Of a DNA stretch of 64,000 bases, positions 55,981 through 64,000 are shown piece after piece. Position numbers and translations under genes: made by a program. Source of the stretch: Effrenium voratum (Eukaryota; Sar; Dinophyceae; Suessiales; Symbiodiniaceae); assembly GCA_963377175.1 (NCBI GenBank), contig CAUJNA010000465.1, forward strand, positions 97,501-161,500, written 5' to 3'. A model generated the notes under the pieces. It saw only the letters and a program-made list of their open reading frames with translations. It made no database searches and was not told the DNA's origin. Positions within the stretch are counted from its first letter, which is position 1. Every line of letters starts with the position of its first letter.

Positions 55981-56599
55981 CCAGCAGCGCACAATGTTTC
56001 AGTTGGCATGAAGAGTTTCTGCTCACTGCGCAGCACCCACTAGCGACCAGTGCTTGAATTTCCTACTTGCCAGTCGTTGGTGTTAAGTTTGGAGCCAACC
56101 CGATGTTCTATATATGAAGTCTCAGTTGAAGAATACTGAACAATATGCATGTTTGACAGGGTGCGATGCCAATGATTCACCATCACTTACAAGACATGTC
56201 CAGTCAATAGCCTTCATGTGGCATGCTTAGCTGAAAAGGGATTCTTTGAGTGGGCGGAATCGTCATGTAGACGTTGTTTGTCCACCGTTTCACATACTCA
56301 TGAACTCGTGGTTAAGCAAAGCTTTCATCCATGAGGTTCATTCCTTTTGCAACCATGACAGTTTGCATGTGTCATGTGTTTCAATTCTCTAAAAGGTACC
56401 AATCCTCCAAACGCACCTGCGTTTGGCTCAAGCTGCCTAAGGGTCAACAGGAGTGCGTCCGCCATTTGCTTGACGACGCGCGGTGTTCTTTACCTCTTGG
56501 TAGCGACATTACTTGGATCGAGTTTGGGATTGCTTGAATCAATTACAACGAGCTGTTCTATTCTTGATTCAGCTGGTTATCAGCCGTAAGCGGCTCTTA

Positions 56600-58064: not shown

Positions 58065-58975
58065 CGGTAAAGATCACCGCTTTGACGGAATTACTGGACG
58101 AATCTTTGCTACTCCCTCCACCCTCATCCACTCCTTTCCCACCTGAGCTCTTTGACCCTGAGGACGGATTCGCATCAGACTCAGATTCACTTTCATTACT
58201 TCGGCTAGCACGGCTCTTGAGAATATCGAGGTGCGCTTCTGGGATGGGTAAGGCCGTGCTTCCTGGCTACTGGCCTGATCACGCGATCTAGATGTGTCGC
58301 CATAACGCTGAGCATGGGCGCTTCGAGTCCTCTGTGGCTTCAAATCATTCATTTCCCCGGTCAGGTTTTCGATCTTAGCGATTAGGAAACTGAGGGCTGC
58401 CTCTATGCCTTGGCTTGGTGCTTCTGGCATGTCATCGCCTCCCCCAAGCCCCGATGATCCGGCCAGTTTTGGTTCCTGAACATCAGAACTTCCCTTAGGG
58501 TGCTTCTCGGTGGAGCTTTTATGCTTTTCACCGATCGGACTTTGACTTGTCATCCTTAGTGCCGGCCTTTGAGGGTTCCTGCGCCAAAGATGAGCCACAT
58601 GCGCCGGCCATTTGCGGTTCCTGCTCATGTGGAATTTGGTCCGTGCCATGATGGACGAGTTGCTGGGGAGCACCATTTGCATGCTTTGAGTCATAGCTTC
58701 CTGTTCCTTGATCTTTGACACTAGCATATGCAATTGTTGCTGCATTTGGTCAAACTGAGTTTTGCCATGATCAGCATCCTATCCTTTTCCTGGATCTGGA
58801 CATGTGCGTGTTGCACGGAACCTTGGGCTTCAGCCCACCACGTCTCTTTCCTTGTGAGCGCTATCAACGGCAGTTTGAGCTTGATGGTAGATCTCTGTGG
58901 CTTGGGCCCTTACACGACCTAGTTCATTGCCAGCCTGGGCAGCAAGGTTCAGGAGCCCTGGGTCACATCACACAT
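58065..58975 (-). pseudogene. Inverted gag N-terminal coiled-coil segment
   Basis: On the minus strand, from 58975 leftward, the frame reads QNV-stop-CDPGLLNLAAQAGNELGRV, EIYHQAQTAVDSAHKERDVV, then after a shift AHVQIQEKDRMLIMAK, then QFDQMQQQLHMLVSKIKEQE, and to 58074 a charged low-complexity tail (SQGIEAALSFLIAKIENLTG). Q/E/K-rich helices suggest the gag coiled coil. The plus strand just left of it (to 58064) reads NQTNQSPVYSQQQQ, and continuing from there into the minus-strand reading keeps the frame (QQQQ-N-V). The segment is bounded by CAGCAAA (58058-58064) and TTTGCTG (58976-58982), a 7-bp inverted pair. Confidence 0.75.
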
Positions 58976-58984
58976 TTTGCTGTT

Positions 58985-60133
58985 GCTGATAGTAGGAAAA
59001 GAAGCTGATGCGAGTCAAGGCTTATGAGACTAGGAATCAGTTGTGTAGCAACATCACCAAGCTGGCAAAGGGCAATGAAGCACCCGTGTTCAAATGGATC
59101 GACAGGTGCTACCGCGAAGACGATGTGTCAAAGTTGAAGGATTCCGGCAGCTATCCTTTGTTGGATCGAATTGTTGGAGTTCTCGCTTTTCCATGGATTT
59201 CCAATCTTTGCAGGAAAAAGCTCAGAAAAAGGGTCGCCAGCCAAAAGGGAGGGTACTCTTGTGGCATGTTCTTGCGAGGTACAAACTCGATCGCGACAGA
59301 GGCACCTGTTTGACTCAGCATCGCTTGTTGTCCTTGAAAATCTCGGGTAAGGATGCGAAAGCATTGGAGAACTTTAGGACTAAGTATGACTTCGTGTTCA
59401 ATTCGCTCGAAAAGGACGAACGTCCGAGCGAAAGCTCACTTAGGACTCACTTGTTCGAAGAGCTCAAAGAACATCCTCTAATGTTGCTGCAGATCGACAA
59501 GTTCAGGTGTGCTAAACCCGGGTCTCACAAGAGAGCTTCCACATGGCTGTGAAAATGGGTGAAGCCATTGACATTGCCCAGGTGGAAGAAAATACTGCTT
59601 GTGTTGACAAGTCGTTGGGTGGTGGCCAAAATCAAAAGGTTCATGCGAACATTGCCAAAACCAAAGAAGAAAAGAAGGAAAAGCCGAAAGGATCCAAAGA
59701 AAACCCCAAGAAGAAAGACAACCCCAAGAAAGGGGGTGAATCCAAAAAGGATTCAAACAAGCAGGACAAGGGGGAAAAGGCGCCCAAGAAGGGGGGAACA
59801 AGCTAGCGTCCTGCTGCCCCCGCACCCTCAACTCCGAAGAAAAATCAGCAGAAAGGGACCGGAAAGGGGATGCCTGGGACTCCAAGTACAAAGGAAGAGA
59901 AAGCGAAGATGCCGCGCATGTACTTCGCCTTTGATAGCTGCGCAAAAGACAAGTGTGATTACTTGCATGACAAGAACAACCTGTACAAAGGGCCTAAGCC
60001 TCAGGGATTGAGGACCGCAGAAGGTTTGCAACTGTGGGTGGGGTTGAGGCAGGGTTCTGATGCAATCAAAATGCAAGGGAAGTTGAGTGGAAGCAACACA
60101 TTCTACTCCTTGAGGAGTGTCCGCCTGCGTTGA
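58985..60133 (+). pseudogene. Retroelement gag with CCCH-type zinc finger
   Basis: Blocks in order, with frame changes: RVKAYETRNQLCSNITKLAK with VFKWIDRCYREDDVSKLK (59010-59170), DFQSLQEKAQKKGRQPKGRV to DKFRCAKPGSHKR (59195-59530), then a frame from 59543 with AIDIAQVEENTACVDKSLGG, a lysine-rich tail KEKPKGSKENPKKKDNPKKG, a TAG at 59804, and MPRMYFAFDSCAKDKCDYLH (59909-59970). The last is a C-x4-C-x3-H finger whose first cysteine is arginine, as would weaken RNA binding. The lysine tail plus CCCH finger suggest the nucleic-acid-binding part of gag. At least two frameshifts and one stop. Confidence 0.75.
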
Positions 60134-60930
60134 GTCTTGGTATTCAGGTGAATGAGCATCAAAAGCCCTGGGTATGGTTCCCAGGTCAATTGCCATTCTT
60201 CACCAAGGCCGATCGCATTCAGGATGTGACATTCCATCGCCCTGAATCAGCTAAGATATATGTGGATAGAGTGGTTCAACATGTGCCAGTTCTACATAAA
60301 ACTCTGAGCTGCGATGTGGGCACTGATCCTGTGCATCAAGGCAATAGCACTGTGCCATCTATGACGTGTGAAACTTCAAGCCTTGCTTCTTGGACAAGAA
60401 AAGAAAGAGGTGCCAAAAGGTTTCGCACCTCCATCGGCGGCCCACCTTGGAACCAAGTTGTGAAGCGTGTGACAAAATGCCTCAACTCAGGCCAAGTGAT
60501 TGCCGAAGAAGATGTGCAAGGAATGAAAGAGGCAGAGCTGTTTGCTAAAATTCCAGGCGGCCCAAGGGACATTGAAACAACTTTGTACTTTAAACCACCC
60601 ACTGGGGTCAAGGAAGCCAATCACGCGTGTGAGCCAAAGGCATCAAATGATAGCAAATTCGGCATAAAACCAGATCAGGTGGCGTTATCGGGTGGAAATG
60701 CTGTAATGTACCCACCAGTATCAGGAAACCCCGCTGCGGAACCAAGCTCCTCATCAAAAGGGCCTGCATGGGACATAGTACACCCGCCAAGGCCATTGCC
60801 GCCGGAGGTTGAAACCCCGAGACCGTTGAGGGTCGGGTGCCCAAAGCAGCGCCACCGCCGGAGGTTCCTCCAACGCCAGGTGAACGCAGACCTGTTGTTG
60901 AAATCAAAGAGTCAGAACCAAGACCGTTGA
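60130..60930 (+). CDS. Retroelement gag-pol linker frame
   Basis: A continuous 266-codon frame. Its early part reads WFPGQLPFFTKADRIQDVTF and YVDRVVQHVPVLHKTLSCDV; the middle has GGPRDIETTLYFKPPTGVKE; the end is proline-rich (HPPRPLPPEVETPRPLR) and basic. It sits where a copia protease would be, but no D-[ST]-G motif is present, so the protease is missing, diverged beyond sight, or located in a frame I did not identify. The start is the first usable codon after the gag stop; the protein was probably once fused to its neighbours. Confidence 0.55.
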   Translation: MSLGIQVNEHQKPWVWFPGQLPFFTKADRIQDVTFHRPESAKIYVDRVVQHVPVLHKTLSCDVGTDPVHQGNSTVPSMTCETSSLASWTRKERGAKRFRTSIGGPPWNQVVKRVTKCLNSGQVIAEEDVQGMKEAELFAKIPGGPRDIETTLYFKPPTGVKEANHACEPKASNDSKFGIKPDQVALSGGNAVMYPPVSGNPAAEPSSSSKGPAWDIVHPPRPLPPEVETPRPLRVGCPKQRHRRRFLQRQVNADLLLKSKSQNQDR

Positions 60931-60945
60931 GATTGAAGCCAGAAT

Positions 60946-61383
60946 TTGGCTCATTTTGGGGAAGGGGATGAACTATCTCTTTGCGAGGATATGGGGTTCA
61001 GCGAAAGGGACAAGCCTCTCGACTCGGATGACGACCTTGAATGGACACCTTCCTTGCGGGATACGCTGATGAAAGAAGCTCACTCGTTGGAACATTCCCT
61101 CACTCACTTTCCTAAAAACCGTTACTGCGAAGTGTGTCGTAGAGCTAAAATGACTCAGCGAGTGCACTGCGGTAAAAAGGGGGCAGACAAGGAGGGCGAG
61201 GAAACTCCGCCACTCCATTTCGGCCATCGTTTACGAGCTGATCACATCATTCTTGGCTCCGACCTGACCAAAGGATCAGAAGGAGAACAAGCCTGTTTCA
61301 TTTGTTATGGTGATTACAGTGGGCGTGTCGAAGCCTTTGCGATGACTCAACGAACTGTGGATCACAACATTGTCCTAACAGCT
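60946..61383 (+). CDS. Integrase N-terminal zinc-binding part (broken by inversion)
   Basis: Reads GDELSLCEDMGFSERDKPLD, then HSLEHSLTHFPKNRYCEVC with CRRAKM: H-x3-H-x7-C-x2-C, the HHCC zinc finger of retroviral-type integrases (H61083 region). Next LRADHIILGSDLTKG holds the first catalytic aspartate of the D,D-35-E core, followed by CFICYGDYSGRVEAFAMTQ. The coding sequence ends at NIVLTAS and a stop created by the inversion breakpoint (AGCT at 61380-61383). Restored orientation of the next 560 bp continues this frame. Confidence 0.8.
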
Positions 61384-61943
61384 TCATAGTCTAAAATCAG
61401 GCGCGCGTCACGGAATCTGAATCCCGCATCCAACCTCCAACCAACGAAGATTACTGCAAAAGTTCGAGGGTCGAAAGGAGGAAGATCCCCGTGCTTGGCC
61501 GGCTTCTAGTAAACCAGGGCGCCTAATGGAATTTTGAAACCAGTGAATGGTTCACCATTATTAGCAGCCTCGTAAGCTGTTAAACCTTCCTTGAAACTTT
61601 TAGTTTCTTCAGTGTCATGCGAATGCACAGGCACCGGCTGCGAAATTGATTTTGCAACACAACAGTATTCGATGGATCGCGGTCACAAGGCGTGGTGAAA
61701 GACGGCCTTTAGATGGATCGCTCTTGCTCCCTCCTTGATCGACCTGATAAGTCTTTCCAACTTTGGGTTGTGAAGAGGATCATTTGCAATCCCTGGCGGA
61801 GGCAACCAACCAAGATATTTCACCGCCTCTGTAGTTTCAGCAGCTGCGTCAGAGCGAGCAACACTTTGCCGCGAGCGCGAGTTCCACCGAACTTCTGAAG
61901 TACTTGAAGATCCAAAGGATACGGCAGACCTTTGCAGATTCAC
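61384..61943 (-). pseudogene. Inverted integrase core segment
   Basis: On the minus strand from 61943 leftward the frame reads VNLQRSAVSFGSSSTSEV, ARSDAAAETTEAVKYLGWLP, PPGIANDPLHNPKLERLIRS, IKEGARAIHLKAVFHHAL-stop-PRSIEY, then TKSFKEGLTAYEAANNGEPF, GFKIPLGALVY-stop-KPAKHGD, FAVIFVGWRLDAGFRFRDA and LILDYEA. SDAA holds the second catalytic aspartate, and ERLIRS the region of the catalytic glutamate. Two stops are single-base decay (TGA, TAG). Both ends are palindromic AGCT (61380-61383, 61944-61947). Reading from the plus-strand integrase into this segment in its minus orientation is in frame. Confidence 0.8.
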
Positions 61944-62858
61944 AGCTCTGGGCTGGTGATGCCGGAAACTTTTACCTTTCCACTCTTTGAAGCTCAAGTG
62001 TCAAAGCTTATGTTGTTCAAGCCGGATGCGGAACTCAAATCATTTGAAACAAGGGAAGCCCTGCCTTTTGAAGGCAACGCTCCAAAACCTTTGGTCAGGC
62101 ACAGAAGAACCTACGTCACCCTTGAACGGGCGATGAGGTTAGGCAAGGCTCCGGGGTGTAAAGGATGTGCAAAAATTTCAGAGGGTATTCCCCTCTCAGA
62201 TGAATGCCATGAAAGATTCAAACGATTGCTTGAACATGAAAAGGCAGCCGAGGCGGAGAAGCGATCATCTGCTCCCGCCACTCCAATAGCAGCGGCAATG
62301 CCTGCTTTGCAGCAGAAAGCAAATATATGTCCAGCAACGAACCCTGAACAAAACGAAAAGTATTTTTGGGAATTCGATGAAAATACGATGTGTTGGAAAC
62401 GACTCTTTACTTCAGTTGGTAAGGATGTGCCGTTTGATTCTGACAAGATAACTTCACATCGTTTCACCGAATGGAAGTGTAGAGGGCGATGGTCGACCTA
62501 TGAGGACGACTGGCAGCACGGTTCTCCTAACCGCCGCATTTCACCAAGGAGCTGGACAGGTGTGACATGGTTCTTCCCAAAGGAGCCAGTTGACACCAAG
62601 ATTGCTAAAGTCTCTGCAGTGCAAGTAAACTTGCTGACTGAGTCGGACACTCTGAAAAGGGGTGACCATGCTGTGGTTTCTATCAGTACAGACCTCCAAG
62701 AAGGGATTACCAAACCAAACGTTCGAGAAGCCGTAAATGGACTTGTGCGTAGCGATTGTCAACACATGCCCTTGAATCCTAAATCAAAATCAAAACGCGG
62801 CACCGATCAAGTGACGTTTGAGTTTGCTGTAGCCCCCAATGATGGGGAAGATCCATGA
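61944..62858 (+). CDS. Retroelement post-integrase linker region
   Basis: A long frame, about 300 codons, starting within the inversion breakpoint and reading SGLVMPETFTFPLFEAQVSK, RRTYVTLERAMRLGKAPGCK with CKGCAKISEGIPLSDECHER (a C-x2-C...C arrangement), a long E/A/K linker, KYFWEFDENTMCWKRL, GVTWFFPKEPVDTKIAKV and ending VTFEFAVAPNDGEDP. In copia polyproteins of dinoflagellates, as I remember them, a cysteine-containing linker of this type lies between integrase and reverse transcriptase. The frame is intact over 900 bp, in contrast to the upstream parts. The RT that should follow is absent. Confidence 0.7.
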   Translation, partial: SSGLVMPETFTFPLFEAQVSKLMLFKPDAELKSFETREALPFEGNAPKPLVRHRRTYVTLERAMRLGKAPGCKGCAKISEGIPLSDECHERFKRLLEHEKAAEAEKRSSAPATPIAAAMPALQQKANICPATNPEQNEKYFWEFDENTMCWKRLFTSVGKDVPFDSDKITSHRFTEWKCRGRWSTYEDDWQHGSPNRRISPRSWTGVTWFFPKEPVDTKIAKVSAVQVNLLTESDTLKRGDHAVVSISTDLQEGITKPNVREAVNGLVRSDCQHMPLNPKSKSKRGTDQVTFEFAVAPNDGEDP

Positions 62859-63164
62859 AGAGCTAGGCATTGGTCACATCAGACTCACCGCTGAGAACTC
62901 TGATGTGTCTGACCGTCAGCAAGGGCAGTCTGCTAAACATGCTGGAAAAGTTTCCTGGCTCTGACCTATAAGACTCATTACCACGCAGCCCGTGGTCAAA
63001 TTGGCAAAACATGTGTGTGCGCACTTGCACGGTGAAAGCTACAAAAATTAAAGGACCGGATAACCCCACATGCTATGTTTTGCGCAAGGATGTGAGTTCA
63101 AATGTCCACACACATGTACCGTGCGCCCCTTGTATGGATGCGATTACAGAGCACCCAGATGCAC
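62859..63164. other. Spacer between retroelement and satellite
   Basis: No gene. GCACCCAGATGCAC just before 63165 is the end of a satellite monomer, so the array begins with a truncated unit near 63150. Confidence 0.5.
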
Positions 63165-64000
63165 AGAATGCAGCGCCTGCCACGACTTCGGCAACGGCAT
63201 CGCCAAAGTGCTGCGCCTGCCACGATTTCGCAACGGCATCGCCAAAGTGCTGCGCCTGCCACGATTTCGCACGCCCCCCGCCGCGCGCGCGACAACATCC
63301 TGTCCCTCTAGACAGCTGCCGAATGCGACCCCTGCCACACAAACACACACCCAGATGCACAGAATGCTGCGCCTGCCACGACTTCGGCAACGGCATCGCC
63401 AAAGTGCTGCGCCTGCCACGATTTCGCAACGGCATCGCCAAAGTGCTGCGCCTGCCACGATTTCGCACACCCCCCGCCGCGCGCGCGACAACATCCTGTC
63501 CCTCTAGACAGCTGCCGAATGCGACCCCTGCCACACAAACACACACCCAGATGCACAGAATGCTGCGCCTGCCACGACTTCGGCAACGGCATCGCCAAAG
63601 TGCTGCGCCTGCCACGATTTCGCAACGGCATCGCCAAAGTGCTGCGCCTGCCACGATTTCGCACGCCCCCCGCCGCGCGCGCGACAACATCCTGTCCCTC
63701 TAGACAGCTGCCGAATGCGACCCCTGCCACACAAACACACACCCAGATGCACAGAATGCTGCGCCTGCCACGACTTCGGCAACGGCATCGCCAAAGTGCT
63801 GCGCCTGCCACGATTTCGCAACGGCATCGCCAAAGTGCTGCGCCTGCCACGATTTCGCACACCCCCCGCCGCGCGCGCGACAACATCCTGTCCCTCTAGA
63901 CAGCTGCCGAATGCGACCCCTGCCACACAAACACACACCCAGATGCACAGAATGCTGCGCCTGCCACGACTTCGGCAACGGCATCGCCAAAGTGCTGCGC
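63150..64000 (+). repeat. 196-bp satellite, 4.3 copies, reaching the window edge
   Basis: AGAATG starts at 63165, 63361, 63557, 63753 and 63949, an exact 196-bp period. Each monomer contains two and a half copies of a 39- to 40-bp subunit (GCGCCTGCCACGAYTTCG, GCAACGGCATCGCCAAAGTGCT), then CCCCGCCGCGCGCGCGACAA, CCCTCTAGACAGCTG and ACACAAACACACACCCAG. Copies are nearly identical; CGCACGCCCCCC (1st, 3rd) alternates with CGCACACCCCCC (2nd, 4th). 196 is not a multiple of 3, so the open frames over it are artefacts. Confidence 0.97.

Follow-up and report, generated by a model that had tools for sequence, protein, structure and literature searches.

Short segments of DNA that have been turned round in place, known as microinversions, are the closest described counterparts of the locus treated here, which lies inside a retrotransposon of the dinoflagellate Effrenium voratum; the host element is compared below with Ty1/copia-like LTR retrotransposons, whose class features are general knowledge. 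Between Drosophila melanogaster and D. pseudoobscura there are 143 inversions under 5 kb, 77.6 % of them under 1 kb, which were checked against reads by the authors, according to the excerpted text of PMC1779558; the rate between these two species is 1.1-2.9 per Mb. The excerpted text of PMC8755829 describes human-chimpanzee microinversions of 17-33 bp, the majority of which are exact reverse complements. For internal inversions in LTR elements, no such case stood among the titles and opening lines of abstracts listed, nor was there one among the matches listed for inversion in dinoflagellates or Symbiodinium. The single mention of 'inversion' in the excerpted text of PMC8045281 concerns tube handling, and no open-access paper naming dinoflagellate and microinversion together was found under that wording.

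By the window is meant the whole stretch of DNA analysed, 64,000 nucleotides in length (C465:97501-161500), which has a GC content of ~50 % and contains no N. It holds a dead, 3'-truncated copy of a Ty1/copia-like LTR retrotransposon, in which two segments, designated blocks A and B, run against the rest. The features on which the argument depends are as follows.

56124..56574, plus strand: remaining 5' LTR of the window copy; a matching unit stands at both ends of the relative at L011/L019, where the two are ~95 % alike.
58065..58993, minus strand: inverted block A, gag region, 929 bp.
60937..61371, plus strand: left flank of block B, an ORF with linker, HHCC-like finger and first catalytic Asp region, for which 26 proteins were found, one of which is the window's own.
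61087-61137, plus strand: HHCC-type finger, motif position.
61231-61251, plus strand: first catalytic Asp motif LRADHII, motif position.
61372..61906, minus strand: inverted block B, most of the integrase catalytic core (QVLQKFGG to LDYEAVR), 535 bp with base-level junctions.
61752..61784, minus strand: NDPLHNPKLER in block B, with the presumed catalytic Glu (codon 61755-61757), invariant in a four-row alignment.
61827..61856, minus strand: RSDAAAETTE in block B, with what we take to be the second catalytic Asp (codon 61848-61850), aligned with P0001 and P0002.
61907..63047, plus strand: right flank of block B (KGYGRPLQIHSS..., the post-integrase linker), to which P0007 aligns from KGYGRP (~61911) onward.

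The window copy retains the 5' LTR, gag, the integrase region and the linker, and is considered truncated at 63047 because alignments to most longer copies stop at window position 63046-63047. Whereas the relative at L011/L019 has two LTRs (~470 bp, ~95 % alike), the 5' LTR alone was seen in the window copy. In another relative (L014) the integrase region is followed downstream by a reverse-transcriptase match, the order being taken from coordinates; the L014 ORF matched RVT_2 of Pfam at 28.0 bits and E 2e-6, under the curated cut-off of 31.6, and an ORF of L019 matched no Pfam family. Relatives of the element were found neither in IMG/VR nor in prokaryote genomes. As to the surroundings, a 196-bp tandem satellite without assigned strand (63152..64000) starts ~100 bp beyond the point where the element is truncated and extends 1,865 bp past the end of the window, its units being ~97-100 % alike to the first, and the 5,000 bases immediately before the window (C465:92501-97500) are N.

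The orientation of block B was judged against other copies of the element, with DNA searches covering 1.156 Gb in 3,699 contigs. A search with the right flank gave at least 14 matches beside the window's own, on 12 other contigs, of which 11 were examined, a short match on C110 being left out. Eleven other loci (10 kb each) were fetched from the same genome and represent 10 distinct ones, because L011 and L019 share an identical 9,806-bp stretch; the two contigs concerned, C1760 and C1640, are of exactly round sizes, carry this stretch in opposite orientation and look like an assembly duplicate. Relative to the window, block B is opposite to its flanks in all 11 loci (at L018, to the right flank only), and hence the window alone is flipped and the others are collinear; none of the copies found shares the flip. 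When the 11 loci and the window were all compared with one another (66 pairs, E up to 1e-10), each of the 11 pairs that include the window had minus-strand matches and none of the remaining 55 did. An earlier note on this DNA had proposed that the element's own sequence was inverted in place, and this is what the 10 of 10 distinct other copies bear out.

That note had also set the block at 61384-61943, and its ends have had to be moved. Used as a DNA query, the block in that form gave at least 18 matches on 12 contigs; on C1068, C1760, C1640 and C3268 the match runs to approximately base 525 on one strand and over bases 524/525-560 on the other, and on C694 the first 348 bases match one strand and bases 525-560 the other. 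With the strand switching at ~525 on five contigs, the right end of the block belongs near 61907 rather than at 61943. Related proteins point to the same flip. When 38 proteins, including the window's own P0013, were compared with the window by tblastn, eight (P0002, P0003, P0021, P0025, P0029, P0033, P0037 and P0038) gave at E<0.01 both a plus-strand match before the block and a minus-strand match inside it, the plus-strand matches of 8 of the 38 terminate exactly at 61371, and P0007 is already on the plus strand from KGYGRP, ahead of the right end first proposed.

At base level, collinear copies join the left flank to 61906 (reverse-complemented), and 61372 (likewise reverse-complemented) to 61907. 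The left junction is exact in four of the five copies with both left anchors placed (10 were tried), the exception being L016 with a 4-base overlap, and the right junction is exact in six of nine placed, the exceptions being L012 (1-base overlap), L013 (19-base overlap) and L010 (rearranged, the parts far apart). Our reading of these inexact junctions (1 of 5 left, 3 of 9 right) is that they reflect changes in the copies concerned; L013 is a copy with deletions of its own. Since most collinear copies that could be placed give exact joins, the block is 61372-61906 (535 bp), and in most copies nothing has been gained or lost at its ends. These ends can slide by 2 bp, because the TT at 61370-61371 pairs with the AA at 61907-61908, and an inverted overlap of at least 2 bp occurs in ~16 % of 5,000 random pairs. 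Within 40 bp of the ends no inverted repeat exceeds 6 bp, which is also the maximum met most often when the block was placed at random 3,000 times. Apart from the 2-bp overlap, neither inverted repeats beyond chance nor recombination sites were found at the ends of block B.

Nested insertions are common in such genomes, and the minus-strand block might on that ground be a separate element fragment that landed in opposite orientation, as the earlier note had itself allowed. Identity to single copies does differ between block and flank by up to ~9 points; for example, L009 is 89.2 % identical over the left flank, 90.2 % over block B and 94.1 % over the right flank, while L012 has 88.2, 82.7 and 86.1 %, respectively. 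However, the difference goes in either direction, the range of identities is that of the flanks, and block B fits precisely the gap between its flanks, with nothing duplicated. With the gap filled exactly and identity within ~9 points of the flanks, a nested insertion is not needed to account for the block, and the exact fill-in excludes it in practice; we consider it scarcely credible.

The consequence of the flip for the integrase is straightforward. As the earlier note had described, the plus strand carries the HHCC finger (61087-61137) and the first catalytic Asp (LRADHII, 61231-61251), the minus strand carries the second Asp and Glu region (RSD, 61856-61827; NPKLER, 61784-61752), and the post-integrase linker, to judge from the right flank and from P0007 (from ~61911), is on the plus strand again. 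The roles of the last two residues are taken over from DDE integrases in general, i.e. the Asp of RSDAAAETTE as the second catalytic Asp and the Glu of NDPLHNPKLER as, presumably, the catalytic Glu. The core was recognized here by motifs alone: 0 of 18 proteins had a Pfam integrase match, a PDB sequence search gave no match, and P0033 matched the NCBIfam family IS481 weakly (E 0.0056, 16.2 bits against a cut-off of 224). A structure model of the integrase was poor (pLDDT 49.7), and when this low-confidence model was submitted to Foldseek the top hits were mostly Ty3 and retroviral integrase chains, with a best E of 0.039 and TM-scores of ~0.2 or less, none of them significant. Given the truncation and an integrase core divided over two strands, with stops and frame changes that interrupt the reading, the window copy would not be expected to function.

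The earlier note had furthermore taken the block to be bounded by AGCT at both ends, with the minus-strand reading continuing in phase (V-N-L-Q), and such sites, together with two flips in one element, might suggest a site-specific or repeat-mediated switch, driven by an invertase or by recombination between inverted repeats. With breakpoints at 61371/61372 and 61906/61907, however, the AGCT at 61380 lies 8 bp inside block B and that at 61944 lies 37 bp outside. In six of the seven collinear copies displayed, both AGCT stand within ~50 bp of each other and flank the right junction; they are old element sequence, and neither marks the left junction. The window contains 324 AGCT in total, and AGCT occurs within 41 bp of both ends (a distance that covers the observed case) in 11 % of 20,000 random placements of a 535-bp block, while some shared 4-bp palindrome does so in 62 % of 20,000. 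With the sites off the breakpoints, an AGCT- or palindrome-bounded switch is rejected. The V-N-L-Q peptide fares no better: it arises when the plus-strand flank 61907-61946 is read in reverse complement. The homologous reading of the block opens with QVLQKFGG, in a different frame, and V-N-L-Q is dismissed as flank sequence. The idea of short inverted or palindromic bounds combined with frame preservation thus falls on both counts, as there is no palindrome at the breakpoints and no meaningful preservation of frame. A survey of the copies for AGCT-bounded inversions, which the note had called for, found none flipped among the 11 loci (10 distinct). No sign of an invertase was met in these comparisons. 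Given also that the longest inverted repeat nearby is of a length typical by chance and that blocks A and B have no visible end feature in common, a switch of this kind is highly improbable and is largely refuted by the collinear copies.

Block B had been described as the second inversion in the same copy, and this is correct, in that block A (58065-58993) is real as well. Block A is opposite to its flanks in seven of the seven distinct copies that hold it, and here too the window alone is flipped. Its junctions could be placed in 4 of 10 copies per side (L017, among the four on the right, differs in the last bases), and sequence present in collinear copies is missing, ~10 bp from the left end and ~2 bp from the right, a total of ~12 bp judged by eye; block A has therefore lost sequence, whereas block B has neither gained nor lost any. 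Divergence is also higher in block A than in its flanks, which goes against a simple reading of it: identity to L012 is 74.2 %, as against 83.6 and 85.8 % for the flanks, and the same region of five of six other copies is 79.3-84.3 % identical to L012, with L017 at 71.3 %. Beyond their short length and in-place position, no feature common to A and B was visible at the ends. The view that two such events in one element are hardly due to chance keeps its factual part, both flips being real, and loses most of its force, since the window was selected for having two; the coincidence is only suggestive. By simple arithmetic, two independent events on 11 equal-sized copies would fall on the same copy in ~1 of 11 cases, and with that expectation and the choice of window the pair was not accepted as proof of a linked mechanism.

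The account that we favour, with a probability of about three in four, is that block B is a conservative microinversion in a dead, 3'-truncated Ty1/copia-like copy, produced by two breaks and end joining. Two double-strand breaks ~535 bp apart would have freed a fragment, and this fragment would then have been turned and rejoined at the same place by end joining. An exact flip with no inverted repeats, duplication or loss fits such a course, and the losses at block A fit it likewise. Since one copy alone carries the flip, it probably took place after insertion, in situ, and among the copies examined it would be confined to that of the window; it would probably precede the split of the two strains or close relatives that share the left junction (see below). 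A separate, similar event ~2.4 kb upstream would have turned the 929 bp of block A, with a small loss at the ends. The orientation of block B, its ends, the lack of the flip in the other copies examined and the fit of the block into the gap are observed; this mechanism and this order of events we infer. Against it, two flips here and none in 10 other copies could point to a special local process.

One process that would bring the two flips together is template switching, whereby a DNA polymerase in repair or replication, or the reverse transcriptase making this copy, copied a segment from the opposite strand. A single error-prone synthesis event would suit two flips in one copy as well as the divergence of block A above that of its flanks, and template switching could in principle give an exact flip. 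It is also discussed as a source of microinversions, the 17-33 bp human-chimpanzee cases being explained by microhomology-mediated break-induced replication in the excerpted text of PMC8755829. The same excerpt has all 59 of its inversions, far shorter than block B, flanked by inverted repeats of 3-75 nt, whereas block B shows neither duplication nor loss, and its ends share no more than 2 bp of inverted repeat. On balance, template switching appears unlikely, albeit deserving of some weight.

It must also be considered whether the flip is an assembly error, i.e. a piece of repeat set in the wrong orientation. The element is a repeat, and in this assembly C1760 (55,000 bp) and C1640 (50,000 bp) share 9,806 identical bases. 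On the other hand, the window is free of N, and a 2-bp overlap at the junctions should be too short for an overlap-based assembler to build a false join on. The protein table assigns P0013, whose sequence equals that of the window ORF terminating in the inverted left junction (HNIVLTAS), to a contig of 233,363 bp, whereas the contig of the window measures 223,809 bp. P0004, also on a 233,363-bp contig, matches the window locus at 94.7 %; it matches nowhere else on the window's contig as far as that contig can be read, 5 kb of it being N. Among matches of at least 93 %, other database proteins pair with other loci at ~94-99 % (P0003 and P0008 with L013, P0006 with L015, P0012 with L012, P0023 with L016, P0025 with L009 and P0031 with L014), probably as orthologues in a second assembly would, and the two sets of contigs suggest that such an assembly exists, from another strain or a close relative. 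With the left junction encoded on a contig of a different size, an assembly error is very unlikely; this argument covers the left junction of block B and draws on the contig sizes of the protein table. A separate oddity is found on C999, where L013:4968-5031 joins pieces that are apart elsewhere (window 58532 to 61324, and 61364 to 61842 in the block). P0003 spans both of these joins at 98.9 % identity, and they are thus probably present in the second assembly too.

A screen for further in-place flips returned 29 redundant rows, of which 25 fell within C465 (53-62 kb and 214-218 kb), four were between the window element and the loci, and none was between loci. Those at 53-62 kb of C465 were set aside, since GAT/CAT simple repeats abound there, and besides blocks A and B there is one further clear in-place flip on this contig. 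It lies outside the window at C465:217813-218180 (L035), measures 368 bp within a minisatellite of roughly 100-bp units, and was judged against the related array C465:214982-215282, the flanks being collinear. It is tempting to speculate that conservative sub-kilobase inversions are unusually frequent in this genome, perhaps through a packing of chromosomes that brings nearby breaks together, but we regard this as a long shot.

The present case thus adds one well-resolved microinversion from the dinoflagellates, in which rearrangements on this small scale seem to have received little study, and it removes a false lead, there being no sign of an AGCT-guided switch. It also indicates that such events can readily be counted by comparing the copies of a repeat, with no need for a second species. 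Compared with Ty1/copia-like elements, the host element agrees in having same-genome relatives with two LTRs (L011/L019) and with integrase motifs followed by what may be a copia-type reverse transcriptase (L014), and differs in that the window copy has neither the reverse-transcriptase end nor the 3' LTR and carries two flipped blocks. Block B itself is an ordinary small inversion, and the kind of event is already known. Like the majority of the human-chimpanzee microinversions in the excerpted text of PMC8755829 it is an exact reverse complement, although those microinversions are far shorter and all flanked by inverted repeats, as against 535 bp and nothing beyond 2 bp here. With the Drosophila microinversions, as excerpted from PMC1779558, it has in common a short segment turned in place; theirs lie in introns or beside genes and were seen between species, whereas block B lies inside a dead retrotransposon and was recognized from copies in the same genome.
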